From a virus: a stretch of DNA of 20,699 nt. Location of the stretch: positions 1-20,699 of the IMG/VR virus record IMGVR_UViG_3300007960_000264; one strand, given 5' to 3'. Below the pieces are notes generated by a model that saw nothing but the letters and a program-made list of their open reading frames with translations, was not told the DNA's origin and made no database searches. This document shows, piece after piece, positions 3 through 20,699 of this stretch (position 1 is the first letter of the stretch; each line of letters begins with the position of its first letter). The position numbers and the translations under genes were made by a program.

Positions 3-1832
3 TTTAACAGTAATATGATTGTTAATGAGTCTTTCTTGGACTCGGCAACTCTTCGTGAAAACGTTGTATCTCTGGCAAAAAATATTGGTTATGTACCACG
101 CTCTAGAACAGCAGCAAAGGCAATTATATCGTTCTCTGTGATCACTACAGAGAGTGTTTCTACTCTTACCCTCAAAAGAGGTTTGGTATGTGTAGGAGAG
201 GCAAACGACACCACATACACATTCTCAATACCTGAAGATGTAACGGCAAATGTAGTAGATGGTGTAGCACAATTTAATGAGATAGAGATATATCAAGGAA
301 CATATTTAACAAAATCTTTTACATATGATGGTTCTTTAGACCAAAGATTCATCTTAAACAATCCTTTTATAGATACTTCCACTCTTCGTGTTTATGTTAA
401 AAAGACTGCCGAGGACGGTCTTGGAATAGAATACAGCATTGTAGATAATATTTTAAATATAACTCCAGTCTCAAAAATTTATCTCATACAAGAAGTTCAA
501 GATGAGAAATATGAAATTATTTTTGGAGATGGAATAATTGGTAAAAAACTTGGCGATGAAGTTGGTTCTGATGGGACTATAGTAACTGCAAATTATATTA
601 TTACTGATGGCAGAGATGGCAATGGACCTAGTGAATTTTCTTTTGCTGGTAGTATCGTAAAGGTAGTTAATTCTGTTGAAACGGTAATTGATCCTGGTGA
701 TGTGACGGTAACCACCGTCCAACAGGCGATTAATGGTTCTGACATTGAATCTATTAACTCTATCAAATATTATGCTCCTAGAGTTTATTCATCACAAAAT
801 AGAGCGGTTACCTCTAGAGACTATGAAGCAATCATCAAACAGATTTACCCAAATACAGAATCTGTTGCCGTTATCGGTGGAGAAGAATTAGATCCCCCAG
901 AATTTGGAAATGTTATTTTAAGCATCAAACCAAAAAATGGGACATATGTTTCCGATTTTGATAAGACAAGAATTCTTAGTGATTTAAAACAATACACTAT
1001 ATCTGGCATTAATCAAAAAATTATTGACCTTAAGGTACTATATGTAGAAATAGATTCTTCCATATATTATAACAATTCTCAAATTTCTGGAGAGAATAGT
1101 TTAAAGACGAAAGTAGTCAATAGTTTGACAAAGTATTCGGAATCTTTAGACCTTAATAAATTTGGTGGAAGGTTTAAGTATAGTAAAGTTCTTGGTGTAA
1201 TTGACAAAACTGATACTTCAATAACTTCTAATATTACCAAAGTAAGAATCAGAAGAGACCTACGTGCTTCTCTGAATCAATTTGCCCAGTATGAATTATG
1301 TTTTGGTAATAGATTCCATATAAATCCTACTGGACGCAATATTAAGTCAACAGGATTCACCATTTCTGGAGAGTCTTCCACGGTATATCTAACAGATACA
1401 CCATCTATTACTGTGGAATCAGGTAATAATATTACTAGTTCAACAGAAGCAGTAAATCTTTTCTTAACCAGACCCAGTAGAGTTTCTGCAAAAACTGGAG
1501 TTATTTCCGTAATTAAAATTGATTCTTCAGGCAAATCAACCGTTGTTGTTAAGGATGCCGGAACAGTTGACTATGTGAAAGGTGAAATTATGTTAGGAAC
1601 AGTTAACATTACATCTACAGAAAAACCAAATGGAGTTATTGAGATTCAGGCATTCCCAGAATCTAACGATGTTATTGGATTAAAGGATTTATATTTATCT
1701 TTTGATATTTCCAAAAGTCAAATAAATATGAGAAGAGATGTAATTGCTTCTGGTGATGAAATAACAGGAAATGTTTTTACTAGAGATTATTATACATCAA
1801 GTTACTCAAACGGGAATCTAACAAGAAACTAA
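3..1832 (+). CDS. 6: gp6-like baseplate wedge protein (5' end cut by window)
   Basis: Structural subunit of the T4-like tail baseplate. In T4, gp6 dimers link neighbouring wedges into the ring around the hub. The frame is open from base 3 (codons F-N-S-N) into the ATG at 15. The stretch after it (NESFLDSATLRENVV, then GYVPRSRTAAKA) aligns in my memory with an internal part of T4 gp6 about 65 residues from its start, so the true start lies off the left edge and the ATG at 15 is probably an internal methionine. Counting from base 15, residues 266-307 (TSRDYEAIIKQIYPNTESV, then IGGEELDPPEFGN) form the most recognisable gp6 / baseplate-J-like segment. The visible 605-609 residues plus about 60 missing would come close to T4 gp6 (about 660). 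It ends in TAA, with the next gene's ATG one base later, which suggests translational coupling. The call rests on remembered family sequence and gene order; no alignment was run. Confidence 0.88.
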   Translation, partial: FNSNMIVNESFLDSATLRENVVSLAKNIGYVPRSRTAAKAIISFSVITTESVSTLTLKRGLVCVGEANDTTYTFSIPEDVTANVVDGVAQFNEIEIYQGTYLTKSFTYDGSLDQRFILNNPFIDTSTLRVYVKKTAEDGLGIEYSIVDNILNITPVSKIYLIQEVQDEKYEIIFGDGIIGKKLGDEVGSDGTIVTANYIITDGRDGNGPSEFSFAGSIVKVVNSVETVIDPGDVTVTTVQQAINGSDIESINSIKYYAPRVYSSQNRAVTSRDYEAIIKQIYPNTESVAVIGGEELDPPEFGNVILSIKPKNGTYVSDFDKTRILSDLKQYTISGINQKIIDLKVLYVEIDSSIYYNNSQISGENSLKTKVVNSLTKYSESLDLNKFGGRFKYSKVLGVIDKTDTSITSNITKVRIRRDLRASLNQFAQYELCFGNRFHINPTGRNIKSTGFTISGESSTVYLTDTPSITVESGNNITSSTEAVNLFLTRPSRVSAKTGVISVIKIDSSGKSTVVVKDAGTVDYVKGEIMLGTVNITSTEKPNGVIEIQAFPESNDVIGLKDLYLSFDISKSQINMRRDVIASGDEITGNVFTRDYYTSSYSNGNLTRN

Positions 1833-1833
1833 T

Positions 1834-4800
1834 ATGATACAGACTGGATTTGAATCTAGAGTTAAGGTTCAGCAAATTATTGAGAGCCAACTTCCAAGTT
1901 TTATATTGGATGAAAATCCGAATGCAACAGAATTTTTGAAGCAATATTACATATCACAAGAATATCAAGGTGGACCAATTGATATTGCCGAAAATTTAGA
2001 TCAATACTTAGAACTAGATAATCTCATACCAGAAGTAATTGCAGATAATTCTACATTATCTGCTAATATTAGTGCGTCTGATACTAGCATTCAAGTATCG
2101 AGCACCAAAGGATTTCCAAGTAAATATGGTCTTTTTAAACTTGATGATGAGGTAATTACATATACTGGTATTAGTGGAAATACTTTTACTGGTTGTATTC
2201 GTGGTTTCAGTGGAATTACGGGATACCATCAAGAGTTAAATCAAGAAGAGTTAGTTTTTTCTGAAACTACTGCAGATTCTCATACTTCTGGATCTTCAGT
2301 AGAAAATTTAAGTTCTTTATTTTTAAAAGAATTTTATGAAAAGATAAAATATACTCTTACTCCAGAATTACAAAAGGTCGATTTTACTCCTAATTTAAAA
2401 GTTAGTAACTTTTTAAAGGAAACAAAATCTTTTTATGCCGCTAAAGGAACTGACGAATCGTTTAGAATTTTGTTTCGTGTTCTTTATAACGAAAAACCAA
2501 CCGTTGTAAACTTAGAACAATATTTGATAAAACCATCATCCTCAGAATATTTGAGAAGAGGGGTAGCAATTGCAGAAGTTATTTCATTAAATTTTGATGA
2601 GAGTGACTTTGATGCGACGAAATTATCTGGAAAAACAATTAGAAAAACTAATGATGATACCACCAGCGCCTCTATATCTTCGATAGAACCTTTTAGGAGA
2701 GGATCCAAAACATACTACAAACTTTTTCTTTTTGTTGGGTACAATGAATTTTCTGCAATTGAAGGCGATTTTGAAATAACCCCAAGCACAAAATCAACTT
2801 TAACAACACCAATTGGGTCTCCCGTGTTAACGGTAGATTCTACTATAGGATTTGAAAATAGTGGAACTTTAATATCTGGAAATAACACAATTTCGTATAT
2901 CGGAAAAAGTGTTAATCAATTTTTCAATTGTTCTGGAATTGATACTGAAATATCTAAGAACAGTTTAGTTACATCTAATGAAACTTACTATGTTTATCAA
3001 GATAATAATCTTTCTCAGAAAGTAAATCTGAGACTTCTTGGAGTATTATCTGATTTTGTAAAAGAGTCTAATAATATTAGAGTTACTGAAGGAAGTAGAA
3101 TATCGATTAAAAACCTTGGTGATGTAGTTAAAAATCCCATTGAAAATAAAACATATAAAGAAATTTTTGCAAACTCTTGGATTTACAATACTGCAGTAAA
3201 ATATGAAGTAGATTCAACAGGATCTAATTATAGTCTTAGAAGTAATATTGATAGGTCAAGTCTTAAAGTTGGCGATAGAGTAGAACTATTGGAGAGAAAT
3301 GGTCAAGAAAGTTTAGTAGAAGAAAATGGAAGTGTTCCCGCATATATTAGTGCTATAGATACAACAAATAACACGATAAAACTTGGTGGTTCATTTAATA
3401 CCAATTCTTCTATTGATTACGACCTCCGTAGAAAAATAAACACGGCTTTTAGTTCTGGAGTACCGATTGAATATGGCAATAATGCAGTAACATCAGACAT
3501 TCAAAATGTATATACTGAAGGAAGCGATTATGTATATGTTGCTTCAAATTCTTTACCGTCTGGTGAAATAAATGGCGATAATAGTTACAGATATAATATT
3601 GCAAAAAATATTTTTAAATTTACCATAGATTCTGAGGATAGATTATTAGATCAAGATTTAGATAAGTATTCTATTATATTAAGTAGTGATAATGTACCTT
3701 TTGTAACTGGTGATAGGATTTATTACCAACCATCTTCAGTACCTCTTGTTGGGTTAGAAACAGGTTCTTACTATGTAGAAGTATTGTCTAATCCCAAACA
3801 AATTAGACTTTATGATTCTAGATCCTTCATAGGAGGACCTGATTATAAAACTTTTAGCGCATCAGAGGAAGGAATTGGTTCTCATACATTTTCTTTATAT
3901 TCTCAGAGAGAAGATAAAATAGGCGTTCAAAAAATATTTAAAAAATTTCCATTAGGTTCAAAAATACAATCACCAGGAGAACCTACCACTCCAGGAACCA
4001 CTGGAATGTTAATTAATGGAGTTGAAATTTCTAACTATAAGTCTTTTGATAGAGTATATTATGGTCCAGTAAACAAGGTAAATGTCTTTAATCAAGGATT
4101 TGGATATGATGTAATAAATCCTCCAAGACTAGTAGTTTCGGAGAGTTCTGGAACTACTGCATTGGTTCAACCAGTTGTCAGTGGAAATATTGAAAATGTT
4201 TATATTGATACACAAGATTATGATATTGATAAAATATTGTCCATAGATATTTCTGGTGGAAATGGATCTGGTGCTGTAATAGAACCTATTATAACCAGAC
4301 AGTTTAGATCAGTATCTTTCGATGGAAGAACTTCATCCGATGGTGGTGGAATAGGAACATCTTTAAACAGAATTCAATTTATTTCTGACCACAATTTCCA
4401 GAATGGTGAAGAGATTGTTTATAACAATAATGGAAATGCTAATTTATTCATTGACGGTTCTATATCGACTTTAATAAATAATGCTTCTTATTTTGTTAAA
4501 GTTGAAAATAGCAATACCATAAGTTTATTCGAAACACAGTCTGATTATATCTCGGGAATTAATACTGTAGGATTTTCTACAGGAACCGATGGTATTCACA
4601 AATTTAAAACATCTATACCGAAAAATAAAATTTCAAGTGTAAAGATATTAAATGGTGGAAGTGGATATACAAATAGAAAACTCATAGTATCACCCTCAGG
4701 AATTTCTACTGAAAATAATACTATCAATTTTGAAAATCATGGATTTAATACCGGAGAATTGGTAACTTACGATTTTGAAACTTCTGGTATATCTGGAGTT

Positions 4801-7800
4801 TCAACAAACAATCAATATTTTGTTATTAAAATTGATGATGACTCATTTAGAATTTGCAATGCGGGGGTTGGTGGAACTATTGTAAGTGAGTTTGATAGAA
4901 AAGATTATATTAAGTTTTCAAACACTGGTTCAGGTTATCAGTATTTCAATTATCCAGATATATCAATATCAATAAAATATAACCCAGTTGGATTTTCATC
5001 TTCTTCTCAACAATATCAAGAATTATCAGTAACTCCTGTGGTCAGAGGAAGCATTGTTGATGCATATCTCTATGAAAAAGGAACAGGTTATGGTTCAACT
5101 GTCCTGAACTATAAAGAAAAACCAGTAATATCCATAGAAAATGGAAAAGATGCTTCACTTAGTCCAAATATTGTAGGCGGAGAGATACAATCGGTAACAA
5201 TACAGTATGGTGGAACAGAATATTACTCTGTTCCAGATCTAGAAGTTTTCGATCCTACGGGGTCTGGAACCGGAGCGATAGTTAGAGCAACTATTTCAAA
5301 TGGTCAAATTACAGGTATAATAGTTGTAAATTCGGGAATTTCATATTCTGCTTCTTCGATTATTAGGGTAAAACCTTCAGGAACTGAGGCATCATTTGGA
5401 GCACAAATTAGATACTTGACGGTCAATAATAACTTGAAATTTGGAAATGAAGTTTTACTAGAATCAACAAGTAAGTTAAAGTATACGGTTTCGGGTTATT
5501 TTAATTCTTTAAGAACATCTTTTAAAGAGAGTGCTTCGAATTCACTTACACCATCTATTTCTAAAATTATTGGATGGGCTTATGATGGGAATCCAATTTA
5601 TGGACCTTTTGGATACTCAGATGTAGACGATGAAACTTCACCAATCAAAATATTAAATTCTGGTTATTCATTAAATACATCGAATGTTTTAGATAGACCA
5701 TTAGGATTTGGTGGTGGATTTTTCATTGAAGATTATAAATTTGTACCTGGAAATGACCTTGATAGGAAAAATGGAAGATTTGCAAAAACACCAGAATTTC
5801 CCAATGGTGTTTATGCGTACTATGCTACAATAAATTCCTCAGGTAGTCCAGTTTTTCCATATTTTATTGGTGACGAATATGAGTCTAAAACACTCACAGA
5901 AAATGATACCTTAGATCAAACTTTCGATTTCGGGTCTTCAAATCTTTTGAGAAACACATTACCATATAAAGTTTCTGATAATGGCGCTGGATATGATTAT
6001 TTTACAGAAATTGATGACATAACAAACCAAAAAATCAAAGTAGAGTCTGTTTTTTCTGGTTCTATTGATGATTTTGAAATTTTAAATTCTGGAAACAATT
6101 ATTCTGTTGGAGATGATGTCAATTTTAACAATGCAGGAACTAACGGTGGTGGTTTGAAATTACAGGTTTCTGAACTTAAAGGAAAAGATATTGTAAGCAT
6201 AGAAACATCATCGTTAACGCAAGACAATTTTGTTATTTCTTGGGAAAATTACGACAAAGTAAAGGTAACGAGTTCAGACTATTCCAATCACCAGTTTAAT
6301 AATGAAGATTATGTAGTATTTTCAAATTTATCAAATAATCTTTCAGATTTGAATGGAATTTATAAAATATCAGTTCCTTCCGAAACTGCAACCTCACTTT
6401 CTACTGTAACTAGTGCTATTAGCATTGGTGGAACAGAACTATATGTTTCTAATATCCCAAATAATATATCCATTGGCAGTAGCATTGGTATTGGAACGGA
6501 ATTTTTACAAGTATTGGATATATTCAAAGATAAAAATATATTGAGAGTCAAAAGAGGTTTAATAGGAACTTCTCATGATAAAAATTCTATCGTTACATTC
6601 TATCCAGATTCATTTACAATCAGTAAAGAACTAAATTATTTTGATTCTAAAGTTGATGATAGGGCATATTTTAATCCACAAGAATCTGTTGGATTTGGAA
6701 CGACCGCTGGTCTTTTTGACACAAAAACTTTTGGATTTGGAATAGAAACGGTAACAAGAAGTGTTCCTACTCAATCAATTTACATAGAAAATCATCCATT
6801 TAAAAACAATCAGAGACTTTCATACAGTTATACTGGTTCATTAATTGGTATTTCCACGGATGGTGTTAATTTAATTGGTGGAGGAATACCCTCAACAGTT
6901 TATGTTTCTAATAAAGGCAAGGATTTAATTGGATTGAAGGCCAGTATTGGAACTAGCGAATTTTTCTTCCATAGTGGTGGGGATGATAATGATTATGAAT
7001 ATTATTTTGAATCAAATTACGCCCAAGAAACTGGAACGGTATCTAGAATAAAAGCAACTGTTTCAGTTTCTACTGCACATGGAATGCTAAGTGGAGATTT
7101 AGTTAATCTTACAGTCAATCCAAATCTATCCGTAGGAATCGCTTCTACTTCCGTTAAGGTTATCAGAGATTTATCTACTTCAAAGATTCTTATCAATCCA
7201 ATTGAATTTAATTCTACCGGAATTGATACAACCACAAATACTATTACCATTTCTAATCACAATTTAACTACTGGAGATAAAGTCAATTATTCTGCAGATA
7301 TAGTAGCTTCTGGTCTTTCTACTGGTGATTTTTACGTTTATAAAGTAAATGATAATAACATAAAGTTATGTGAAACTTATATTGATTCTACGAGCAATCC
7401 ACCATTGGTAGTAAGTATTGCTAGCACCGGTGGCTCTGACCAAAAACTGTCATCTATAAATCCCAGAATTAATTCTTTTAAGAAAAATAACCTAGTGTTT
7501 GATCTTTCAGATTCTTCTTTATCTGGTTATAATTTCAATATTTACGCCGATAAAGAATTTAAGTCTAAATTTGTTTCTACTGCTTCTACATCAGGTTTCA
7601 ATATTTCTAGGGTGGGAACGGACCTAACCTTAATCTATGATTCTAACACTCCCGAAAAACTTTACTACACTATAGAAAAATCTGGCACTGCAGGCACTGC
7701 ACTTCATCCAGATAAAGATGTAAAAAATTATTCCGAAATAAACTTTATAAACAGTTATTATTCAGGCAGTTATAATATAAGTGGTGTTGGAACAACTACC

Positions 7801-8499
7801 TTTGAATTAATTTTAAGTACTAATCCAGAAAGATCGTCATATGTACAATCTGAGTGTGATGTGTTGGAGTATTCTACTAATTCTAACACATCTACTGGAC
7901 CAATTAGTGATTTAAAAATAATTTCTAGCGGAAGTGGGTATAAAAAATTACCAGAATTTGAGAGTGTTACATCTTCTTCTGGAGAAAATGCAAAAATTCT
8001 TCCAAAATCTAATAAAATTGGAAATATCAAGGAATTAAAAGTTTTAAATCAAGAATTTGAGTATCCATTCGATAGTACTCTACAACCAAGTGCTTTATTG
8101 CCATCTCAAATTTCAATTAAAAATTCAAACACTTTAGACAATATTACCGTATCTAATGGTGGAAGTGGTTTCATTTCACCCCCAAGTATTATAATCGTAA
8201 GTAACGATACTAGACAAAAAATTAATTCTGGATTACTCACTCCCACACTTACAGGTAGTTCTATAAACTCTGTAAAAATTGAATCGGAACCAAAAGGAAT
8301 TCCAGATAATTCTGTAGAAATATTTACTGTCAATAACAGTAATGGTGTTACAATTCAGAAAATGCAATCTTCCAGAAGTGGAATATTTACTTGTGAAATA
8401 ACAAAACCAGATGGAGGAATTCAATTTAATGTTGGTGAAGAGGTTTTCATTGAAGGAATCCAAAAAGAAAGTATTGACGGAACAGGATTTAATTCTTAA
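1834..8499 (+). CDS. 7: Giant gp7-like baseplate wedge/virion protein with YHYH-like domain (N-terminal part, ends at in-frame TAA)
   Basis: 2221 residues, starting one base after gene 6 at ATG 1834; no strong Shine-Dalgarno is visible. Residues 200-220 (FYAAKGTDESF, then LFRVLYNE) match a motif I remember near the C-terminal third of T4 gp7, the wedge initiator that binds gp10 and gp8. Position between genes 6 and 8 agrees. Residues about 1243-1350 carry a YHYH-like domain (GWAYDGNPIYGPFGY at 1247-1261). The rest is low-charge, Ser/Thr/Gly/Asn-rich beta-type sequence with recurring modules: an H-x-F-x-x-G-[DE]-x-V-x-Y module about eight times, an RGxxGT module twice, and GGxGY motifs. There are no signal peptide, membrane segments or enzyme motifs that I can see. 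T4 gp7 is about 1030 residues, so this is greatly enlarged. Coding sense does not end at the TAA: the same frame continues at once with similar protein (see 8557-13446). The exact role of the enlarged part is unknown. Confidence 0.8.
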   Translation: MIQTGFESRVKVQQIIESQLPSFILDENPNATEFLKQYYISQEYQGGPIDIAENLDQYLELDNLIPEVIADNSTLSANISASDTSIQVSSTKGFPSKYGLFKLDDEVITYTGISGNTFTGCIRGFSGITGYHQELNQEELVFSETTADSHTSGSSVENLSSLFLKEFYEKIKYTLTPELQKVDFTPNLKVSNFLKETKSFYAAKGTDESFRILFRVLYNEKPTVVNLEQYLIKPSSSEYLRRGVAIAEVISLNFDESDFDATKLSGKTIRKTNDDTTSASISSIEPFRRGSKTYYKLFLFVGYNEFSAIEGDFEITPSTKSTLTTPIGSPVLTVDSTIGFENSGTLISGNNTISYIGKSVNQFFNCSGIDTEISKNSLVTSNETYYVYQDNNLSQKVNLRLLGVLSDFVKESNNIRVTEGSRISIKNLGDVVKNPIENKTYKEIFANSWIYNTAVKYEVDSTGSNYSLRSNIDRSSLKVGDRVELLERNGQESLVEENGSVPAYISAIDTTNNTIKLGGSFNTNSSIDYDLRRKINTAFSSGVPIEYGNNAVTSDIQNVYTEGSDYVYVASNSLPSGEINGDNSYRYNIAKNIFKFTIDSEDRLLDQDLDKYSIILSSDNVPFVTGDRIYYQPSSVPLVGLETGSYYVEVLSNPKQIRLYDSRSFIGGPDYKTFSASEEGIGSHTFSLYSQREDKIGVQKIFKKFPLGSKIQSPGEPTTPGTTGMLINGVEISNYKSFDRVYYGPVNKVNVFNQGFGYDVINPPRLVVSESSGTTALVQPVVSGNIENVYIDTQDYDIDKILSIDISGGNGSGAVIEPIITRQFRSVSFDGRTSSDGGGIGTSLNRIQFISDHNFQNGEEIVYNNNGNANLFIDGSISTLINNASYFVKVENSNTISLFETQSDYISGINTVGFSTGTDGIHKFKTSIPKNKISSVKILNGGSGYTNRKLIVSPSGISTENNTINFENHGFNTGELVTYDFETSGISGVSTNNQYFVIKIDDDSFRICNAGVGGTIVSEFDRKDYIKFSNTGSGYQYFNYPDISISIKYNPVGFSSSSQQYQELSVTPVVRGSIVDAYLYEKGTGYGSTVLNYKEKPVISIENGKDASLSPNIVGGEIQSVTIQYGGTEYYSVPDLEVFDPTGSGTGAIVRATISNGQITGIIVVNSGISYSASSIIRVKPSGTEASFGAQIRYLTVNNNLKFGNEVLLESTSKLKYTVSGYFNSLRTSFKESASNSLTPSISKIIGWAYDGNPIYGPFGYSDVDDETSPIKILNSGYSLNTSNVLDRPLGFGGGFFIEDYKFVPGNDLDRKNGRFAKTPEFPNGVYAYYATINSSGSPVFPYFIGDEYESKTLTENDTLDQTFDFGSSNLLRNTLPYKVSDNGAGYDYFTEIDDITNQKIKVESVFSGSIDDFEILNSGNNYSVGDDVNFNNAGTNGGGLKLQVSELKGKDIVSIETSSLTQDNFVISWENYDKVKVTSSDYSNHQFNNEDYVVFSNLSNNLSDLNGIYKISVPSETATSLSTVTSAISIGGTELYVSNIPNNISIGSSIGIGTEFLQVLDIFKDKNILRVKRGLIGTSHDKNSIVTFYPDSFTISKELNYFDSKVDDRAYFNPQESVGFGTTAGLFDTKTFGFGIETVTRSVPTQSIYIENHPFKNNQRLSYSYTGSLIGISTDGVNLIGGGIPSTVYVSNKGKDLIGLKASIGTSEFFFHSGGDDNDYEYYFESNYAQETGTVSRIKATVSVSTAHGMLSGDLVNLTVNPNLSVGIASTSVKVIRDLSTSKILINPIEFNSTGIDTTTNTITISNHNLTTGDKVNYSADIVASGLSTGDFYVYKVNDNNIKLCETYIDSTSNPPLVVSIASTGGSDQKLSSINPRINSFKKNNLVFDLSDSSLSGYNFNIYADKEFKSKFVSTASTSGFNISRVGTDLTLIYDSNTPEKLYYTIEKSGTAGTALHPDKDVKNYSEINFINSYYSGSYNISGVGTTTFELILSTNPERSSYVQSECDVLEYSTNSNTSTGPISDLKIISSGSGYKKLPEFESVTSSSGENAKILPKSNKIGNIKELKVLNQEFEYPFDSTLQPSALLPSQISIKNSNTLDNITVSNGGSGFISPPSIIIVSNDTRQKINSGLLTPTLTGSSINSVKIESEPKGIPDNSVEIFTVNNSNGVTIQKMQSSRSGIFTCEITKPDGGIQFNVGEEVFIEGIQKESIDGTGFNS
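2056..2231 (+). repeat. RGxxGT beta module, copy 1 (gp7-like protein)
   Basis: Encodes a module of about 58 residues: a T-S-I-Q-V strand, a hydrophobic stretch, 'DDEVITYTG', then 'CIRGFSGITGYHQ'. It has the same plan as copies at 6409-6606 and 10930-11170: strand, 'IGxExhxV', strand, R-G-x-x-G-T/I, then H or K. It is a degenerate protein-level repeat and the DNA is not conserved. Modules of this sort are common in phage tail and baseplate proteins; the function here is unknown. Confidence 0.55.
3667..4875 (+). repeat. Cluster of three H-x-F-x-x-G-x-x-V-x-Y modules
   Basis: Three copies of a module of about 55 residues lie near 3667-3837 (VPFVTGDRIYYQ ... YYVEV ... IRLYDSR), 4366-4545 (HNFQNGEEIVYN ... 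YFVKV ... ISLFETQ) and 4717-4875 (HGFNTGELVTYD ... YFVIKIDDDSFRICN). Each runs: turn with His or Pro, Phe, Gly-acidic, Val/Ile-x-Tyr strand, a Gly/Ser loop, a YF-V strand, then a short strand ending in Leu/Cys. Further copies occur near 6274-6378, 6778-6960, 7048-7215 and 7231-7400, and past the in-frame stop at 10591-10815. They are diverged protein repeats, probably small beta folds. Confidence 0.6.
5065..5385 (+). repeat. GGxGY / NGxIT beta-repeat block in gp7-like protein
   Basis: Two successive units of about 50 residues. They run: YEKGTGYGS, 'PVISIENGKDASLSPNIVGG', 'SVTIQYGGTEYYSVPDLEV', then 'GSGTGAIVRATISNGQITG' and 'IVVNSGISYS'. The second half matches blocks in the gp8-like protein (14161-14334) and the DUF4815-type protein (20316-20508). 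Single GGxGY-like motifs also occur near 4078, 4633, 4918, 5968, 7906 and 8143. This is a protein-level repeat with no long identical DNA. Confidence 0.65.
5560..5880 (+). other. YHYH-like domain inside the gp7-like protein (name-giving histidines absent)
   Basis: Residues about 1243-1350 of the gp7-like protein. The 'GWAYDGNPIYGPFGY' segment at 1247-1261 resembles the G-x-A-x-D-G-x-P-I-Y-G-P-x-G-Y core of the YHYH family. About 50 residues later come 'DRKNGRFAKTPEFPNGVY' and an 'FPYFIGDEY' ending, again as in that family. The signature tetrad reads Y-A-Y-Y (residues 1327-1330), so both histidines are missing. Family membership is from memory of the motif; the family has no firmly established activity that I know of, and here the domain is likely structural. 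Confidence 0.72.
6409..6606 (+). repeat. RGxxGT beta module, copy 2 (gp7-like protein)
   Basis: Encodes 'AISIGGTELYVSNIPNNISI', then 'GIGTEFLQVLDIFKDKNIL', then 'RVKRGLIGTSHDKNSIV'. Order and spacing of strands match copy 1 (2056-2231) and the copy in the downstream half (10930-11170). Copies of one module on both sides of the TAA at 8497 support a single ancestral protein. Confidence 0.6.
8497..8499 (+). other. In-frame TAA interrupting the giant gp7-like reading frame
   Basis: The codons before are G-T-G-F-N-S and those after are D-F-G-Y-R-F-L-T-V-K-N-Y, all in the frame that opens at 1834 and closes at 13444-13446. The 57 bases from 8500 to the first listed start (TTG 8557) are open and read like normal protein. 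No ATG in this frame occurs until 9049, and no Shine-Dalgarno precedes either candidate. TAA is the genuine terminator of all three genes whose ends are in the window (1830, 13444, 15022), so codon reassignment is unlikely. One base change from a sense codon (for example TCA, GAA or CAA) explains it. Confidence 0.85.
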
Positions 8500-8556
8500 G
8501 ATTTTGGATATCGATTCCTTACAGTCAAAAATTACACTACATCAAGTCCCTATGAT

Positions 8557-11500
8557 TTGGTAGAGTTTGATGTATCCGGAATAACAACTAATACTGGATT
8601 AGCAAAAGTAATTCAGGATGGATCTGGAATTTTGGTAAACAGAGATAATTATCCAGAGTTTAAAGTTTCGCTGAAAAATACTAAATTTTTACTGGGAGAA
8701 TCGTTAATCTTAGATAATGTAGAATTAGATCTTGTAGTAATTGAAACTAAAGGTGAATATTTAACTATTGATGGGTCTGATTCTCTCTCTATAGGAAATG
8801 TTATTACTGGCAAAGAAAGTGGAACAATAGCGACTGTAGACGGCATTTCAAATTATAATGGTAGTTATAAAGTCAATTACTCATTAACAAATAATTTAGG
8901 ATGGTCGGACAAAGTTGGAGAGTTAAATTCTGATACTCAAGTTACAACGAATAACGATTATTATCAAAATTTATCTTATACAGTAAAAAGCAGTAAAGAA
9001 TATTCGACTTTAGAATCTCCAGTTTTCAGTATTCTTCATACAAGCGGTATGAAGAATTTTGCTGATACCAAAATTGATGAAACTTCTAATGTTGGTGTTT
9101 CTTCAGGTTTAGATGGTAGTATATATTTCGAACAACTTTCAAATTCTTTGAGAGTTGATGCTGTTTATAACTTTGATTTGGTATCAGATTATGATGTTGT
9201 TAATGGAAGATCAAAATACTTGAAATTAGAAAGCACATCACTTTCTGATTATACCGAATTGAGAAATTCGGAAGTTTTAAAATTAGATGATATTAGCAAT
9301 TTATTCTCTTACTACGAGGATGAACCTAGTGAATTTCTAAATATCCAAAAATTGGACAATTCCGATTCTTACAATAATTATTTGATTAGAGTTACTAATG
9401 TAAGTAATACTGAGGTTCAGTTCACGGAACTAATAACTTTGAATACTGGAGATGACCAGTTTATCATACAAAAAGCAAATATTCAAAATAGCGATTCCTC
9501 TTATGGAGACTTTGAATTATTTGGGGACGACTTTGGTGATACTTATTTGAGATTTGTTCCTGTTAATGCTTATGATACTGACTATGATTTAAAATTAATT
9601 AAAAATTCTTATACATCATCTTTATCTGGAGTAGGAACTACTTCTATTGGATTTATAGATCTCATTAGTTCCAACAAAGTTGTAGGACCAAATACATCTA
9701 CATCTATTGCCGAATTAGATTCAAATAATTTTGAATCTATGTATGCAAATGTTCAAGTAATAGATAATGCCACCGATGAAATAAACTTTGTTGAACTATA
9801 TGTCGTTGGAATTGGAACAAATTCATTCATATCAGAATATTACTCAGATTCAGATTTTACAAATTCAACATTTACATCAGATTCTATTGGTTCATTTGAA
9901 TCTGATATATCTGAAGGTAAATTATATTTAAATTATGAAAATATTTCATCAAATACAAACACAGTTAGAGCGAAAATAGTTGGATTTGGAACTACTTCTT
10001 TAGGAGAATCAACTTACAGATTTAAGAGTGATAGGCAAACATCTGGATCTGAAAGAACAATAATTTATCAATCGGATTATGCAACTGGAGTGGGTACAAC
10101 AACTATAATATCTCTTAATAAAAATTTCTTTAATGCAGTCAAGTCTATTGTTGAAGTGAGTATAGGATCTACAAAGGCAGTTCATCAAGTACTGATGATT
10201 CAAGATGGAAATGATGTATATGTGCATCAATCTCCATTACTTTCTGTAAGTGGAATTGGAACTTTTGATACTGGTCTTGGAATTGGAACTTTTGGAGGAA
10301 ATATTTCAGGTTCTGATTTAGATTTAACATTTACACCCGAATCGGAGTATTCATCATACAACTTAGAAATCTCAGCATTTAGTCAGGCATTTTACACTGA
10401 TTTAGATGTGATTAATATTCCAAATACGCTCGAATATGGAAAAATTGAAGAAGAAACACAAGTTAGATTCTTCAATTCTATCAATGGAACTAGAATTAAT
10501 AGAACTAGGTTTAATTTGACTAGCAACTCATTCCCTGTTTTTGTTAGAATTTTTGACCCACAAGATACAAATGCCTTAATTTCAACAACAGGCGTATTTA
10601 ATTCAACAAACCATTTCTTCAAAAATAATGAAGAATTGATTTATACACCTAAATCATCAGTTATCGGCATTGCTACAACTGCAATGACATATAGCAACCC
10701 GACCAGTGGAGTTATCGATACACTTCCATCGACAGTATTTGCAATTGTAACTGATGATGATAGTTTCCAAATTTCTACAACTAGAGGTGGAACACCTGTA
10801 ACATTTACAGATCTTGGTGGAGGAAATATTCACCAATTTGAGATGGTTAACAAGGTTAACAAAACTATTATCACAATTGACGAATTGATTCAACATCCTT
10901 TAATTTATAGTGGTGAATCAAGAACTCTTTCTGGAACAATTGGTACTGAAACAACATTATTTGAATTGGATGATATATCCCGAATCAATCCATCAGATAT
11001 ATTAAAAATTGAAAATGAGTATGTAATAGTAGATAATGTTGGTTTAGGGACCACAAGTGTTGGTCCAATAACAAATACTGGTTCATTTAATCTTGTTTTT
11101 GTTGAGAGGGGATTCGTAGGAACTTCTGCTACTAATCACTCTTCCGTAAATGTAGACATTTATCGTGGTGCATATGACATTGTTGAAAACGAAATACATT
11201 TTGTAGAACCTCCGAGAGGAAATCCACAAATTGACAAAAATAGTTCCAATTTAGATTTCGAAACTTCTACTTTCGCCGGAAGAGTATTCTTACGATCGGA
11301 TTATACAACTAATAAAGTATATGATGATATTTCAAACCAATTTAACGGAATTGGAAGAACATTTACTTTACAGGTTGGTGGCGCAAATACATCTGGAATT
11401 GGCACGATTGGTGGAAATGGCATTGTTTTGATAAACGGTATTTTCCAACAACCGTCAACAGAAAACAATATTAATGGAACCATTAAAATTTTAGAGACAA

Positions 11501-13485: not shown

Positions 13486-15024
13486 ATGTCTGCTTTAGTA
13501 ACAGATAAATTTAGAATTTTTAATGCAGGTAATTTTGTAGATTCTGTTTTAGATTCGAATAATTCTTATTATGTATTTTTGGGTTTATCAAATCCAGAGT
13601 CTCCCAATCCTGGATTTGGTAGATCCACTATTTGGAGTGATGATGGAGAAACTCCACCAAATCCAACGGATAATTTGCAATATATGTCTCATTACAGGGA
13701 CACATCACTTTTCGGGAAAAGAATTACATCCGAAAATGTTAGAAGAGTAATAAGAAAAGTAGAATGGACTACCAATACTCGTTATGACATGTATAGGCAT
13801 GATTATAGTGCCAACAATAGAACTCCAAATTCAGAATCTCTAAGACTTTATGATTCTAATTATTATGTTGTTAATAAAGATTTTAGGGTTTATATTTGCA
13901 TTGACAATGGTTCTTCTGAAACGAGTTTGAAGGGAGAGAGTTCCAAATTCGAACCAACTTCTACAGATTTAGCACCATTTCCTGCGGGAAATGATGGTTA
14001 TCTTTGGAAATATTTGTTCACAATTCCACCAAGTGATATTGTAAAATTTGATTCTTCAGAATACATTATTCTTCCTAATAATTGGGAATCTTCAACAGAT
14101 CCAGAAATATTAAGAGTAAGAAATGGTGGAGATTCTGGAGTAAATAATAACCAAATTAAAAAAGTTTACATAGAATCTGGTGGTACAAGTGGATATACTG
14201 ATGGTGTATATAATATTTTAGGTGATGGTGAAGGTGCACAGGTAGAAATAACAACAGTAAACGGTGTAATTACAGATACTAATGTTGTTTCTGGTGGTAA
14301 AGAATATACTTGGGGAGTTGTAGATCTTCAAAGAAGTGGAACAATAGCTTCTCCTCCAGCAAAACTTATTCCAATCATCCCACCATCAAAAGGTCATGGA
14401 TATGACATTTATGAAGAATTGGGTGCTGACAGAGTTTTAGTTTATGCCAGGTTCGATGATTCTACCAGAGATTTCCCTACTAATACTAGATTTGCTCAAG
14501 TAGGAATAGTAAAAAATCCAAAACAGTATTCTTCCGATACTATTAACTTTACTGGATCTTCATATTCCTCTTTATTTGCAATAAAGTTAGATGATGGATA
14601 TTCTGGATCTCCTGTTATTGGACAAAGAATAACACAAACACAATCAGAGACAAATATTGCAAAGGGTTATATTGCTTCATATGATAGTGATACAAAAGTT
14701 TTGAAATACTACCAAGATAGATCTTTGTATTTCACTAATGATTTGGACCAGACTGATTCGAATATTGTAAGTGTTGAATCAAAAATTGTAGATTTTAATA
14801 ATACAAGTCCTATAACTTTCCCAGACACTACCAATACTGTTGTTTCTTCTGGATTTACTGGAAGTGTTTATAATGGATTTAATTTGGGGGTTAATTTTAC
14901 TGGAGGTCTTGCAAATCCAGAGATAAATAAAAAGACAGGTGATATTATTTACATCGATAATAGACCAACTGTACAAAGAAACGTAAGACAAAAAGAAGAC
15001 ATTAAAATCATTCTGGAATTCTAA
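13486..15024 (+). CDS. 8: gp8-like baseplate wedge protein
   Basis: 512 residues, ATG at 13486, 39 bases after the gp7-like frame ends. The start 'MSALVTDKFRIFNAGNFV' followed by 'YYVFLGLSNPE', and 'VRRVIRKVEWTTNTRYDMY' (about residues 85-104), match the N-terminal pattern I remember for gp8 of T4-like phages: a short helix, a FxG strand, then R/K-x-x-W-x-x-G/N-T-x-Y-D-x-Y. 'NDGYLWKYLFTI' (near residue 168) also fits. In T4, gp8 is a 334-residue dimer that binds gp7 and gp10 in the wedge. This one is longer, partly because of an inserted GGxGY/NGxIT module at about residues 226-283. Preceded by a late promoter and lacking an obvious Shine-Dalgarno. Ends in TAA, five bases before the next ATG. 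Confidence 0.87.
   Translation: MSALVTDKFRIFNAGNFVDSVLDSNNSYYVFLGLSNPESPNPGFGRSTIWSDDGETPPNPTDNLQYMSHYRDTSLFGKRITSENVRRVIRKVEWTTNTRYDMYRHDYSANNRTPNSESLRLYDSNYYVVNKDFRVYICIDNGSSETSLKGESSKFEPTSTDLAPFPAGNDGYLWKYLFTIPPSDIVKFDSSEYIILPNNWESSTDPEILRVRNGGDSGVNNNQIKKVYIESGGTSGYTDGVYNILGDGEGAQVEITTVNGVITDTNVVSGGKEYTWGVVDLQRSGTIASPPAKLIPIIPPSKGHGYDIYEELGADRVLVYARFDDSTRDFPTNTRFAQVGIVKNPKQYSSDTINFTGSSYSSLFAIKLDDGYSGSPVIGQRITQTQSETNIAKGYIASYDSDTKVLKYYQDRSLYFTNDLDQTDSNIVSVESKIVDFNNTSPITFPDTTNTVVSSGFTGSVYNGFNLGVNFTGGLANPEINKKTGDIIYIDNRPTVQRNVRQKEDIKIILEF
14161..14334 (+). repeat. GGxGY / NGxIT module inserted in gp8-like protein
   Basis: Encodes 'KVYIESGGTSGYTDGVYNI', then 'GDGEGAQVEITTVNGVITD' and 'NVVSGGKEYTWGVVDL'. 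It aligns without gaps to 'GTGAIVRATISNGQITG' in the gp7-like protein (near 5270-5320) and to 'GSGLKLSITATNGVITG' in the DUF4815-type protein (near 20391-20440). T4 gp8 as I remember it does not have this segment. Confidence 0.68.
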
Positions 15025-15029
15025 AAAAG

Positions 15030-18000
15030 ATGGCACAAAAAACAGACTTAAACGTTAATCCATATTTTGATGATTTTGACGCGGACAAAAATTTTTATAA
15101 GGTCTTATTCAAGCCAGGATTTCCAGTTCAAGCAAGAGAATTAACATCTCTCCAATCTATTTTACAAAATCAAGTTCAATCTTTCGGAAGTAATATTTTT
15201 AAAGATGGTTCGATAGTATCTCCTGGAAATATATCCTATGATAGTCAACTTTATGCAGTAAAGATAAACTCTTCAAATTTTGGAATAGATGTTTCAACCT
15301 ACATTAGCAATTACGTAGGTAAAACGATAAGGGGGGAAGTATCAGGGATAACTGCAAAAGTTCAATTAGTTGCTTTTATTGATGGGGCGACAGTACAAAA
15401 TTTGACATTATATGTCAAATATTTAAATTCTAGTAATAATTTCACTTTTTCACAGTTTCAAGATGGCGAAGCACTTGTTGCTGATGAAAGTGTAACGTAT
15501 GGAAATACAACAATCAATGCAGGAACACCCTTTGCAAGTTTAATTAGTTTAAATGCAACCTCGATTGGTTCTGCGGCATCAATAGGGAAAGGAATATATT
15601 TTATTAGGGGTTATTTTGTAAATGTTGCAAAACAAACCATCATATTAGATAATTATACTAATACACCATCATATAGAGTTGGTTTAAAAATTGAAGAGTT
15701 GCTCATAAATGCAAAAGATGACTCTTCACTCTATGATAATGCAAAGGGATTTTCAAATTTTGCAGCTCCTGGAGCAGATAGATTAAAAATTAATCTTACA
15801 TTGACTAAAAAATTATTAAGTGATACAAATGATACTGATTTTATAGAATTACTTAGATTAGAAAATGGTAAGATTAAAAAAATTAATACAAAAACAGAAT
15901 TCAACAAAATTCAAGATTTTCTTGCGGAAAGAACATATGAAGAGTCCGGTCATTATTCAATAGAAGATTTTGATATTTCTGTTCATAATTCATTAAATGA
16001 TAAATTAGGAAATGATGGTCTTTTCTTAAACACACAGTCAACTGATCAGAATAATACTCCATCAGATGATTTGATGTGCGTAAAATTCTCTCCAGGAGAA
16101 GCTTATGTTGGTGGATATAATGTAGAAAAGGTATCCAATACTGTTGTTGATGTTGAAAAACCAAGAGATACTCAAACTATTACTCTAGAAAACATTTCAT
16201 TTGAAATGGGTAATGTTTTAAGAGTTAATAACGTATCTGGAGCGCCACAACAAAAGGGAGCAGTAGAACTCTATAACCAATTTGCTGGTGCTGGAACAAA
16301 AGTTGGAGATGCTAGAGTATATACTTTCAATCTAACTGACACCGTATATGAAGATGATTCAACAAATTGGGACTTATACTTATATGATATTCAAACATAT
16401 ACGTCACTTACGTTAAATACTCCTGTAGGTCCATTGGGATTTACAACTTCAACCTACGTTAAAGGAAAGAGTAGTGGTGCTAGTGGATATGCCGTAGATT
16501 CTGGTACTGGCAGCACTATTTCCTTAAGACAAACTTCAGGAACATTCTCTTCTGGAGAACAGTTGATTATTAATGGTATTGATGCTTCTGCAACAGTCAG
16601 TTCTTCGATCGTTTATGGAACTAGAGATATTAAATCAGTTTCTCAAACTGGTGTAGCAGGATATCCAGCATTTACTGCAGATTCTTTACTTGATACTTTT
16701 GCTTTGCCAAATGGCATTACGGAAGGAACTATCAGTGGTTCTGGAAGCACGAGAACTTTGATAAGTCCAGGAAAAATATTTACTGGCATTAAAGTAGGAG
16801 ATATTATCAGATATCAAAAAACATCTGATGCTGATGAGACTTTTAGTAGAGTATCTGCAAATAATACTACTTCATTAACGCTAACAACTCTCACTAGTGT
16901 TTCTGGTGTTTATAATGGAACACTCACAAATGGCACTTATAATATTAAACTAGGTATTCCAGTCATAAAGAATGAAGATGCTGGTTATCTTTATACAGAA
17001 CTTCCTGAGAAAAATATTCAATCGGTAGTTCTTACAAATTCAACCTTAGAAATTTCTGAACAAATTACAGGAGAAACCACAGATCCTGGTGGCGTATTAG
17101 AATTTGATGGAACAAGTCTCCAAGGTTCTTTAAAAGCATTCAACAATCAAAGATATTCTGTTCACTATAGTGGTGGTGGTATTGGAACAGTAACTTCCGA
17201 TGCTTTTGATTTAACTAATGATGAGGTTACAATAAAAGGTCTTACAGGAAGTGAAATAAATATTGTAGTTAATGTTACAACGGTCAAAAATCAAATACAA
17301 AGTAAGATCAAAAATTATACCAGAAGCACAGTTCTTGATGTAGTTTATTCTAAAAATAAAGAATCTGGTGTAGGTGTTAATACTTCAATTAATGATGGAC
17401 TTACTTACAATACAAATTATGGTCTGAGAGTTCAAGACGAAGAAATTTCTCTAAACTATCCAGATGTAGTAAAAGTATTGGCAGTTTATGAATCCCTTGG
17501 AACTTCTGATGCAACATTAACTAGATTACAATTTGCAGATACTTCAATTGTAACAAATGCAGTTATTGGCGAAAATATTACAAGTTCTACCAATAACACT
17601 ATTGCTAGAGTTGTTTCGAAACCAACAGCATCTCAAATTGAAATTGTTTATTTGAATCAAGGCAAATTCATTTCTGGACAATCTGTAACCTTTGAAGAAA
17701 GTAATGTTACAACCAGTATTCAATCAGTAACTTTAGGTTTATATAAGGATGTAACCTCAGCATTTGATTTGGATAAGGGTCAGAAAGAGCAATATTACGA
17801 TTATTCAAAACTTACAAGAAAGTTAGGTTCTTCTATCCCCTCAAGAAGGTTGAAGGTTATATTTGACCATTATACGGTCAACAGTGGTGATAACGGTGAT
17901 GTATATACTGTTCTTAGTTATGATAATGATAGATTTTTGAAAGATATTCCCGAAATTGGTCCTAATAAAGTAAGAGCAACAGATACTTTGGACTTCAGAC

Positions 18001-20699
18001 CAAGAGTATCACAGTTTACTGATATTGACAAATCACCATTTGACTTTGATTCCAGAAATTTTGGAACTTTGCCAAAGTTAGTCCTAAAACCAAAAGAGCA
18101 GTCATCTATAGGATATTCTTATTACTTACCTAGAATTGATAAAGTTTTATTAGATACCTTTGGTAATTTTATCGTTCAAAGAGGAATTTCTGGTAAAAAT
18201 CCTAAGGCACCTGTAAATTCAAATCCAGATAAATTAATGGATTTGGGAACAATTAAACTTCCAGCATATCTTTACAATCCAGATGATGCTTCTATTTCTT
18301 TGGTAGATAATAGAAGATATACAATGAGAGATATTGGAAGTCTTGAAGATAGAATTGAAAATCTTGAGAAAGTTACTTCTCTATCTCTATTAGAACTTGG
18401 TGCTCAGGCAACTCAAATACAAGATGTTAATGGCATTTCGAAATTTAAAACAGGATTTTTTGTTGATGATTTTAAGAATGACTCATTAATTAATTTGGAC
18501 ATATCTTCTATACAAGTAGATCCAGATGAGCAAGAGTTGACACCAATAATCAGTAGAAATACATTAAAGAGTCAAATTGCACCTCAAACAGATGTTTCTA
18601 GTGAAACATTAGATTTTTCCCAAAACTTCAATCTTTTAGATTCTAATGTTCAAAAAACTGGTGATGCAATTACTTTAAAATATCAAAATATTGGTTGGAT
18701 TGAACAATCTTTAGCAACAGAATCTGAAAATGTAAATCCATTTAATATTGTTTCTTATAAGGGATTTGTAAAATTATCTCCTTCAAATGATAGTTGGGTA
18801 AAAACTGTCAAATTACCTAAGGGAGTATTTACTTTTTCTGGAAGCACCAAATACATGCGTTCCAGAAATACACAGTTCTTGGCGACTAATTTACTTCCGT
18901 CAACACAATTCTATCAATTCCTTGATGGAGAATCTGGAGTTGATTTCATACCAAAATTATTAGAAATCGCAACAGATAATACTTTAAAAACTTATGGTTC
19001 TTCTGGTGTATTTGAAGTTGGTGAAACTGTAATTGGTTATGACGATAATAAATCTATTATAAGTTTTAGAGTTTGTAGTGCAAACCATAAGACAGGTTCT
19101 TACAATTCACCAACGACAACTTTTGAATTAAATCCATATGTTACTGATAAATCGTTATCTACTGGATATAGCCAATCGTCAAAAGTATTAAACGTTGATA
19201 CTCTTGCATTATCAGAAGAATCGCAAGGTAAATATTCCGGATATGTTGTTACTGGTGCGAAATTAGTTGGTCAAACTAGTGGTGCAGTAGCATATGTAAA
19301 AAATCTTCGTCTTATTAGTGATGAATTTGGTGATCTAATAGGTTCATTCTTCTTAAGAGATCCAAATACAACTCCACCTCCAACAGTAAGAATTACTACT
19401 GGAACTAAAACATACAAACTAACAAGTAGTTCAACAAATCAAATTCCAAAAAATGGAAGTAACACAATATCCACTGCAGAAGTAGAGTACACCTCCAAAC
19501 TTAGAGCAACATTAAATCAAAAAAATAAGTTAATAAAAACTACAAATAATTACTATAATCCATTAGCACAAACTTTTAGTGTTGGTGGAAATATTGAAGA
19601 ACCAGACATTAATGGTCAGAATGATGATGCTAATGGAGCATTTTTAACTGCATTAGATTTATTCTTTTCCAAAAAACCTGCAAAAGGTAATGATCCTATT
19701 AGAGTAGAAATAAGAACGGTTAAACTGGGATCGCCTACTAAGAAAATTGTTGGAAATCCTGTTACTTTAAAACCATCTAATGTCAGTACTTCCAAGGATG
19801 GAACTACTGCAACTATGGTTACTTTTGACTATCCAATTTATCTATCTCCAGGAAAAGAATATGCGGTAGTATTAGTTTCAGAAACAACAGATGAATATGA
19901 AGTTTGGACGGCAAAAATGGGTGAAAAGACCATTAGTACCCAGACTTTACCCGATTCTGAAGCGGTCATTTATGCTCAACAATTTGCTTTGGGAAGTTTG
20001 TTCAAGTCTCAAAACGGGACTATTTGGACTCCAAGTCAAGATCAAGACCTCAAATTTAAACTCTACAAAGCTAAATTTACTTCCAAAGTTGGAACAGCAT
20101 TCTTCTACAATCCTCCACTTGATGAGAGTAATGGATATGTAGAGCAACTGAATAATAATCCAATTACAACTTTACCAAAAACAACAACTCTTGGAATTTC
20201 AACCATTTCTGCCGGAGATGGTAATATTGGTATTTTGACAGTTGGAAGAAAGATTTCAGGATCTAATGGGTTTGGATATGGTTATATCGTTGGACAAGGA
20301 AGTTCCGTTTCCAACGTCAGCATTACTGATGGCGGAGAAAATTATGTAACAGCAACGGATTTAGAAACCACAACTATTGTTGGAAATGGATCTGGACTTA
20401 AATTGAGTATTACAGCAACTAATGGAGTTATTACTGGAATTGCTGGAACAACTGCTGCCGGAAATGGTTATCGGGTTGGAGATGTTGTTGGAATTATTAC
20501 AACTCTGGGAAGAGATGCAAGAATTTCAATTGATTCCATTACTGGATTGGACACTCTCTATCTTTCAAATGTTCAAGGAGAAAAGGGAGCATCTAAGACA
20601 TTCCAAGTTGGTGCAGCGGTTAGTTACTATAATGATTCTGGAACTATTGTATCTCTCGCAAGCACAACAATCACTGACAGAACATCGGAAGGAAGTGGA
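15030..20699 (+). CDS. DUF4815-type giant virion structural protein (3' end beyond window)
   Basis: The frame from ATG 15030 is open for 1890 codons to the last base, so the C-terminus is missing. The start 'MAQKTDLNVNPYFDDFDADK' then 'FYKVLFKPGFPVQARELTSL' is the hallmark N-terminus of DUF4815-family proteins of marine T4-like phages. Other recognisable parts: 'DTLDFRPRVSQF' (near 986), 'RRYTMRDIGSLEDRIENLEK' (from 1095; short coiled-coil), 'YMRSRNTQF' (1275) with 'LLPSTQFYQFLDG', and 'NPLAQTFSVGG' (near 1510) with 'TALDLFFSKKPA' and 'YLSPGKEYAVVLVS'. A GGxxY/NGxIT module starts near 1763. No signal peptide or membrane segment is visible. It occupies the position of T4 genes 9/10, so a role at the baseplate rim or in connecting or forming fibres is plausible but inferred. 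The stop of gene 8 lies only five bases upstream; the A-rich TAAAAAAG before the ATG is a weak ribosome site. Confidence 0.85.
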   Translation, partial: MAQKTDLNVNPYFDDFDADKNFYKVLFKPGFPVQARELTSLQSILQNQVQSFGSNIFKDGSIVSPGNISYDSQLYAVKINSSNFGIDVSTYISNYVGKTIRGEVSGITAKVQLVAFIDGATVQNLTLYVKYLNSSNNFTFSQFQDGEALVADESVTYGNTTINAGTPFASLISLNATSIGSAASIGKGIYFIRGYFVNVAKQTIILDNYTNTPSYRVGLKIEELLINAKDDSSLYDNAKGFSNFAAPGADRLKINLTLTKKLLSDTNDTDFIELLRLENGKIKKINTKTEFNKIQDFLAERTYEESGHYSIEDFDISVHNSLNDKLGNDGLFLNTQSTDQNNTPSDDLMCVKFSPGEAYVGGYNVEKVSNTVVDVEKPRDTQTITLENISFEMGNVLRVNNVSGAPQQKGAVELYNQFAGAGTKVGDARVYTFNLTDTVYEDDSTNWDLYLYDIQTYTSLTLNTPVGPLGFTTSTYVKGKSSGASGYAVDSGTGSTISLRQTSGTFSSGEQLIINGIDASATVSSSIVYGTRDIKSVSQTGVAGYPAFTADSLLDTFALPNGITEGTISGSGSTRTLISPGKIFTGIKVGDIIRYQKTSDADETFSRVSANNTTSLTLTTLTSVSGVYNGTLTNGTYNIKLGIPVIKNEDAGYLYTELPEKNIQSVVLTNSTLEISEQITGETTDPGGVLEFDGTSLQGSLKAFNNQRYSVHYSGGGIGTVTSDAFDLTNDEVTIKGLTGSEINIVVNVTTVKNQIQSKIKNYTRSTVLDVVYSKNKESGVGVNTSINDGLTYNTNYGLRVQDEEISLNYPDVVKVLAVYESLGTSDATLTRLQFADTSIVTNAVIGENITSSTNNTIARVVSKPTASQIEIVYLNQGKFISGQSVTFEESNVTTSIQSVTLGLYKDVTSAFDLDKGQKEQYYDYSKLTRKLGSSIPSRRLKVIFDHYTVNSGDNGDVYTVLSYDNDRFLKDIPEIGPNKVRATDTLDFRPRVSQFTDIDKSPFDFDSRNFGTLPKLVLKPKEQSSIGYSYYLPRIDKVLLDTFGNFIVQRGISGKNPKAPVNSNPDKLMDLGTIKLPAYLYNPDDASISLVDNRRYTMRDIGSLEDRIENLEKVTSLSLLELGAQATQIQDVNGISKFKTGFFVDDFKNDSLINLDISSIQVDPDEQELTPIISRNTLKSQIAPQTDVSSETLDFSQNFNLLDSNVQKTGDAITLKYQNIGWIEQSLATESENVNPFNIVSYKGFVKLSPSNDSWVKTVKLPKGVFTFSGSTKYMRSRNTQFLATNLLPSTQFYQFLDGESGVDFIPKLLEIATDNTLKTYGSSGVFEVGETVIGYDDNKSIISFRVCSANHKTGSYNSPTTTFELNPYVTDKSLSTGYSQSSKVLNVDTLALSEESQGKYSGYVVTGAKLVGQTSGAVAYVKNLRLISDEFGDLIGSFFLRDPNTTPPPTVRITTGTKTYKLTSSSTNQIPKNGSNTISTAEVEYTSKLRATLNQKNKLIKTTNNYYNPLAQTFSVGGNIEEPDINGQNDDANGAFLTALDLFFSKKPAKGNDPIRVEIRTVKLGSPTKKIVGNPVTLKPSNVSTSKDGTTATMVTFDYPIYLSPGKEYAVVLVSETTDEYEVWTAKMGEKTISTQTLPDSEAVIYAQQFALGSLFKSQNGTIWTPSQDQDLKFKLYKAKFTSKVGTAFFYNPPLDESNGYVEQLNNNPITTLPKTTTLGISTISAGDGNIGILTVGRKISGSNGFGYGYIVGQGSSVSNVSITDGGENYVTATDLETTTIVGNGSGLKLSITATNGVITGIAGTTAAGNGYRVGDVVGIITTLGRDARISIDSITGLDTLYLSNVQGEKGASKTFQVGAAVSYYNDSGTIVSLASTTITDRTSEGSG
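20316..20508 (+). repeat. GGxxY / NGxIT module in DUF4815-type protein
   Basis: Encodes 'VSITDGGENYVTATDLE', then 'GNGSGLKLSITATNGVITG' and 'TAAGNGYRVGDVVGI'. It is the third member of the module shared with the gp7-like protein (5065-5385) and gp8-like protein (14161-14334), and has the same order of motifs. Confidence 0.68.

Follow-up and report, generated by a model that had tools for sequence, protein, structure and literature searches.

The window, a stretch of 20,699 bases that makes up an entire virus record, holds a giant reading frame which forms a single baseplate gene, that found at the gp7 position in T4-like cyanomyoviruses (1834-13446), interrupted by a lone in-frame TAA at 8497-8499 on the (+) strand. 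This TAA is most likely ordinary and not a working feature. The favoured reading, to which we give a probability of roughly 0.63, is that the stop arose as an error in the reads or the consensus, or comes from a rare defective genome picked up by a low-coverage assembly. A genuine nonsense allele carried by the majority of the population ranks second, whilst readthrough, two separate genes and a changed genetic code are unlikely. The virus is uncultured and related to viruses infecting cyanobacteria, and "gp7" is here a name by position, between gp6 and gp8.

The reading frame and its interruption

The preliminary description of this DNA, made from the sequence alone, had reported one TAA splitting a frame of about 3870 codons opened at 1834, and this was borne out: the frame starts with ATG, stays open to 13443 and contains no other stop, being composed of 2221 codons, the stop, and a further 1648 codons. 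The peptide read across the junction, GTGFNS-stop-DFGYRFLTV, is exact, and the claim that the downstream part lacks an ATG for about 550 bases agrees with a first in-frame ATG at 9049, 549 bases past the TAA, preceded by in-frame TTG codons at 8557 and 8632. As stops account for 9.4% of codons in the other two forward frames over the 1648-codon stretch, the latter is not open by chance (P ~1e-71). The claim of at least two repeat modules common to the two parts stood up less well, since a BLASTP comparison of the halves gave one match at E 7e-4, with 31 of 117 columns identical, and the others among the matches listed had E values of at least 0.037. The features of the window are collected in Table 1.

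Table 1. Features of the 20,699-base window
Feature	Position	Strand	Remarks
gp6-type baseplate wedge gene, cut by window start	3..1832	+	PHROG 219; Pfam Gp6_C-III below its cut-off
gp7-position baseplate gene, N-terminal 2221 codons	1834..8499	+	PHROG 2885 positions 2-2255
YHYH domain	residues 1241-1334 of N-terminal part (1834..8499)		Pfam PF14240
In-frame TAA	8497..8499	+	seen in this contig alone; sense codon in 116/116 related loci
gp7-position gene, remaining 1648 codons	8500..13446	+	PHROG 2885 from position 2257; no own start codon evident
gp8-type baseplate wedge gene	13486..15024	+	PHROG 438; Pfam PF09215
VrlC-like large structural gene, open at window end	15030..20699	+	PHROG 358, Pfam DUF4815

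Family match and annotated relatives

The two parts match consecutive stretches of a single protein family, PHROG 2885 ("baseplate wedge subunit", 4179 positions), the N-terminal part in one match (E 0) and the C-terminal part in three stretches, the best of which covers positions 2257-3325 (E 0); the profile therefore crosses the TAA with one position missing. The same is seen in tblastn comparisons with the phages S-SKS1, S-SRM01, S-T4, Sf-CH8 and Sf-CH5, in which the matches of the two halves are separated by exactly three bases, that is one codon. Members of this family such as S-SRM01 YP_010670169.1 and P-SSM2 gp7 match the window gene over their full length, and in both phages the gene order gp6, giant gene, gp8 and VrlC-like gene is that of the window, unlike S-B43, S-SCSM1, P-TIM68 and S-SSM7, which have extra genes before gp8. 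The window gene differs from the relatives examined in its in-frame TAA at codon 2222, which they lack.

In 14 of the 16 annotated phage records fetched, a single CDS covers the whole gene. The other two are S-SKS1, which contains frameshifts and is annotated in pieces, and S-SSM7, where the gene is split further downstream, and in each of these one CDS still spans the TAA site. The preliminary description had named homologues ending at this point, followed by a separate downstream gene, as the case that would show two real genes; such homologues were sought in the 16 annotated records and not found.

The label "gp7 / baseplate wedge initiator" given to this gene family in database records fits badly with PMC7029224, according to which cyano- and pelagimyophages lack T4 gp7, seemingly replaced in them by VrlC. 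Single-sequence phmmer queries with either half, at E values up to 1, found no baseplate chain in the PDB that would point to T4 gp7. The gene after gp8 carries the name VriC or VrlC in several annotated relatives.

The site in related loci

For comparison, 120 loci were fetched, comprising 98 from IMG/VR (8, the best 80 of 548 confirmed, and 10), four contigs from metagenome-assembled genomes (MAGs) and 18 named phage records; a further locus (L001) is a piece of the window and stands outside the 120. The set was picked by similarity to this region and is part of what exists. Some contigs were fetched repeatedly, and removal of the repeat fetches (L012 and L112-L114) left 116 loci, 108 of them distinct over 300 nt.

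A single stop-free stretch spans the TAA site in all 120 loci. The alignment of the join to gp7-position proteins of related phages, which the preliminary description had proposed as a check, gave a sense codon in every one of the 116 loci (E 57, S 37, A 8, T 4, K 4, V 3, Q 1, R 1, G 1); the column is thus variable and mostly polar, with no stops among these 116. Relatives with a stop at the site should still have been retrieved in the IMG/VR searches, because the peptide search patterns used there do not cross the TAA site and a stop should not hide them.

The nearest contigs, three IMG/VR loci near-identical to each other (L004-L006), are unbroken at the site and share with the window an amino-acid identity of ~83% before the stop and ~81% after it. 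Protein and exact DNA searches, from which very near records may have been left out, turned up no second contig from this population across the TAA site, and the TAA may therefore be present in other genomes of the species. A megablast search of window positions 6500-11500 against phage records gave no match. The consulted portions of the literature on cyanophage baseplates, the gp7/YHYH protein, readthrough, stops and breaks in viral contigs and oxidative sequencing artefacts held nothing on this site, and a passage of PMC11633184 had no bearing on the TAA at 8497-8499.

Selection and the age of the stop

Against L004, dN/dS is 0.160 before the stop (2217 codons) and 0.162 after it (1648 codons). 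Amino-acid changes, counted where ten outgroups largely agree, fall on the window and L004 branches in the numbers 45 v 53 before the stop and 39 v 41 after it (Fisher P 0.76). The equality of dN/dS on both sides, together with the length of the open stretch, supports the earlier claim of coding selection until very recently: by this evidence the part downstream of the TAA was, until a very short time ago, still being made and selected, and the TAA is very young. From the branch counts we estimate by hand that the C-terminal part has been free of selection for, roughly, at most a fifth of the branch.

Among columns that do not vary in 17 other sequences, the window shows departures at 23 of 461 upstream of the stop and 23 of 348 downstream, the corresponding numbers for L004 being 21 and 23. 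By this measure the window does not look error-rich, which somewhat weakens the reading of the TAA as an error or rare copy and speaks for a nonsense allele.

A chimeric join was also considered. There is no sign of one, because the match to L006 is one alignment over 17.2 kb of the window (83%) and dS is similar in the 300-codon blocks flanking the site (0.66 and 0.77).

Structure and signals around the stop

A predicted model of the L004 region is weak overall (mean pLDDT 59.3) and confident at residues ~105-360, with ten-residue means of 74-93 from residue 111. The TAA site corresponds to model residue 241, between strands 222-226 and 248-254, so that a split here would place the end of one product and the start of the other within this confidently predicted stretch. 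A Foldseek search of the PDB with this model returned no matches at E 0.001 or better.

Beyond the TAA, the window shows no obvious site for a restart. The missing ribosome site at the first later start codons is weak evidence against a separate gene, since the window has three complete gene starts, of which two (1834 and 13486) lack one too, the third (15030) having a three-base one only. The base following the TAA is G, the RNA downstream of the stop shows no unusual folding (z -1.0), and no tRNA genes were found within the 20.7-kb window.

Weighing the explanations

We favour the reading in which one sense codon was changed to TAA, the change being lone and either very recent or purely technical, in a single large gene that is intact apart from this codon. 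The dominant virus in the sample would then carry a sense codon at 8497-8499, as we infer from the consideration that a genome without the final 43% of a conserved baseplate protein should not rise to a majority. Of the three options offered in the preliminary description, a nonsense mutation and an assembly or read error both fit the results, whilst readthrough is spoken against by the lack of a stop in any of the 116 loci and of any signal in the window. The chief competitor, which we regard as possible but at clearly less than even odds, is a genuine recent nonsense allele as the majority form, in which the protein is cut off after residue 2221, with the C-terminal part lost or made separately by chance restarts. 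The stop is clean and in frame with no damage nearby, and the family can tolerate a split elsewhere, as in S-SSM7 (L104, 5920-25014), where the gp7-position gene is made as two CDSs of ~3000 residues each with a virion-protein gene between them; against this, the C-terminal part is constrained as much as the N-terminal part, and the TAA falls within what is predicted to be a single confident stretch.

That natural two-gene arrangement, with an annotated start for the second CDS and the same family made as two separate proteins, is also a precedent for two real genes meeting at the TAA, and the missing ribosome site argues against these only weakly. However, the S-SSM7 split differs from the window TAA both in its intervening gene and in its position (~residues 2495/3077 of the L004 protein as against 2221), the first in-frame ATG in the window lies well past the stop, and the open stretch spans the site in every other locus whether or not the four repeat fetches are counted, which makes this explanation extremely improbable. 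Programmed readthrough, giving short and long forms of the protein, is very unlikely, if slightly less so. Readthrough yields a minor longer virion protein in the RNA phage Q-beta, and here the C-terminal part is still selected and in frame. However, the stop is conserved at the same site in none of the related loci, the folding of the RNA and the lack of a tRNA gene in the window offer no help, and the short form would end within a stretch predicted to be folded; moreover, PMC5289835 reports that of the stops UAA leaks least and that UAAU is the strongest signal. A leaky TAA specific to this lineage, from which this virus alone would make a baseplate protein of 2221 residues and a minor one of 3870, and which would be unseen elsewhere because too few close relatives have been sequenced, is equally hard to favour; should the TAA be real and also leaky, a baseplate part would be dosed in a way unusual for a DNA phage. 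That the virus reads TAA as an amino acid is the least credible of all. Its only point in favour is that the frame continues past the TAA, and it is contradicted by the TAA codons that terminate gp6 (1830-1832), the giant gene itself (13444-13446) and gp8 (15022-15024), on which the preliminary description had already judged a changed code unlikely. The lengths of the giant gene and gp8 agree with those of their L004 counterparts, and no further in-frame TAA was found inside the five frames translated.

Breaks in other copies of the gene

Other copies of the gene were surveyed for breaks by the same method, after dropping the window and repeated or identical loci (L001, L011, L012, L087 and L112-L114); loci identical over the 300 nt at the site, and so possibly of the same population, are L004-L006, L022/L025, L018/L030, L019/L061 and L098/L111. 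The gene is broken elsewhere in five of 92 distinct IMG/VR contigs (319,193 codons, many of the contigs holding part of the gene), in one of the four MAG contigs (16,380 codons; L094) and in two of the 18 phage-record loci (78,661 codons; S-SKS1 and S-SSM7). One in-frame TGA interrupts the otherwise open homologous gene in L085 (4192-4194) and likewise in L094 (3205-3207). L070 has a short stretch with two in-frame TAA codons (~6556-6588, at ~residue 1203), adjoining ~21 residues without an L004 counterpart, and L027, L028 and L063 contain frameshifts. The S-SKS1 record (L002), the annotation of which shows fragments only, has three frameshifts, at ~3641-3710, 8431-8446 and 11754-11772, which are perhaps sequencing errors.

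In L085, L094, L070, L027, L028, L063 and S-SKS1, as in the window, an isolated stop or frameshift thus lies in an otherwise open gene, and in all seven the break is at another place than the window TAA. Such differing places and kinds of breaks are as expected of errors or chance mutations, and given their occurrence in five of 92 IMG/VR contigs, no special biology is required to explain a single stop of this kind; the breaks elsewhere may themselves be real mutations. In this coding DNA 4.8% of substitutions create a stop, and the two clean single stops (L085 and L094) in 1.007 Mb therefore correspond to ~4e-5 substitutions per base; by our own arithmetic, ~0.04 such stops are expected in a 20.7-kb contig. 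With its nearly 3900 codons the gene offers a large target for breaks, and single stops in contigs of this kind should be checked against the reads before being taken as biology. As a separate observation, the four MAG contigs (L092-L095), from bins assigned to Flavobacteria, Gammaproteobacteria and Euryarchaeota, carry baseplate genes of the cyanomyovirus type and are probably virus contigs binned with cells.
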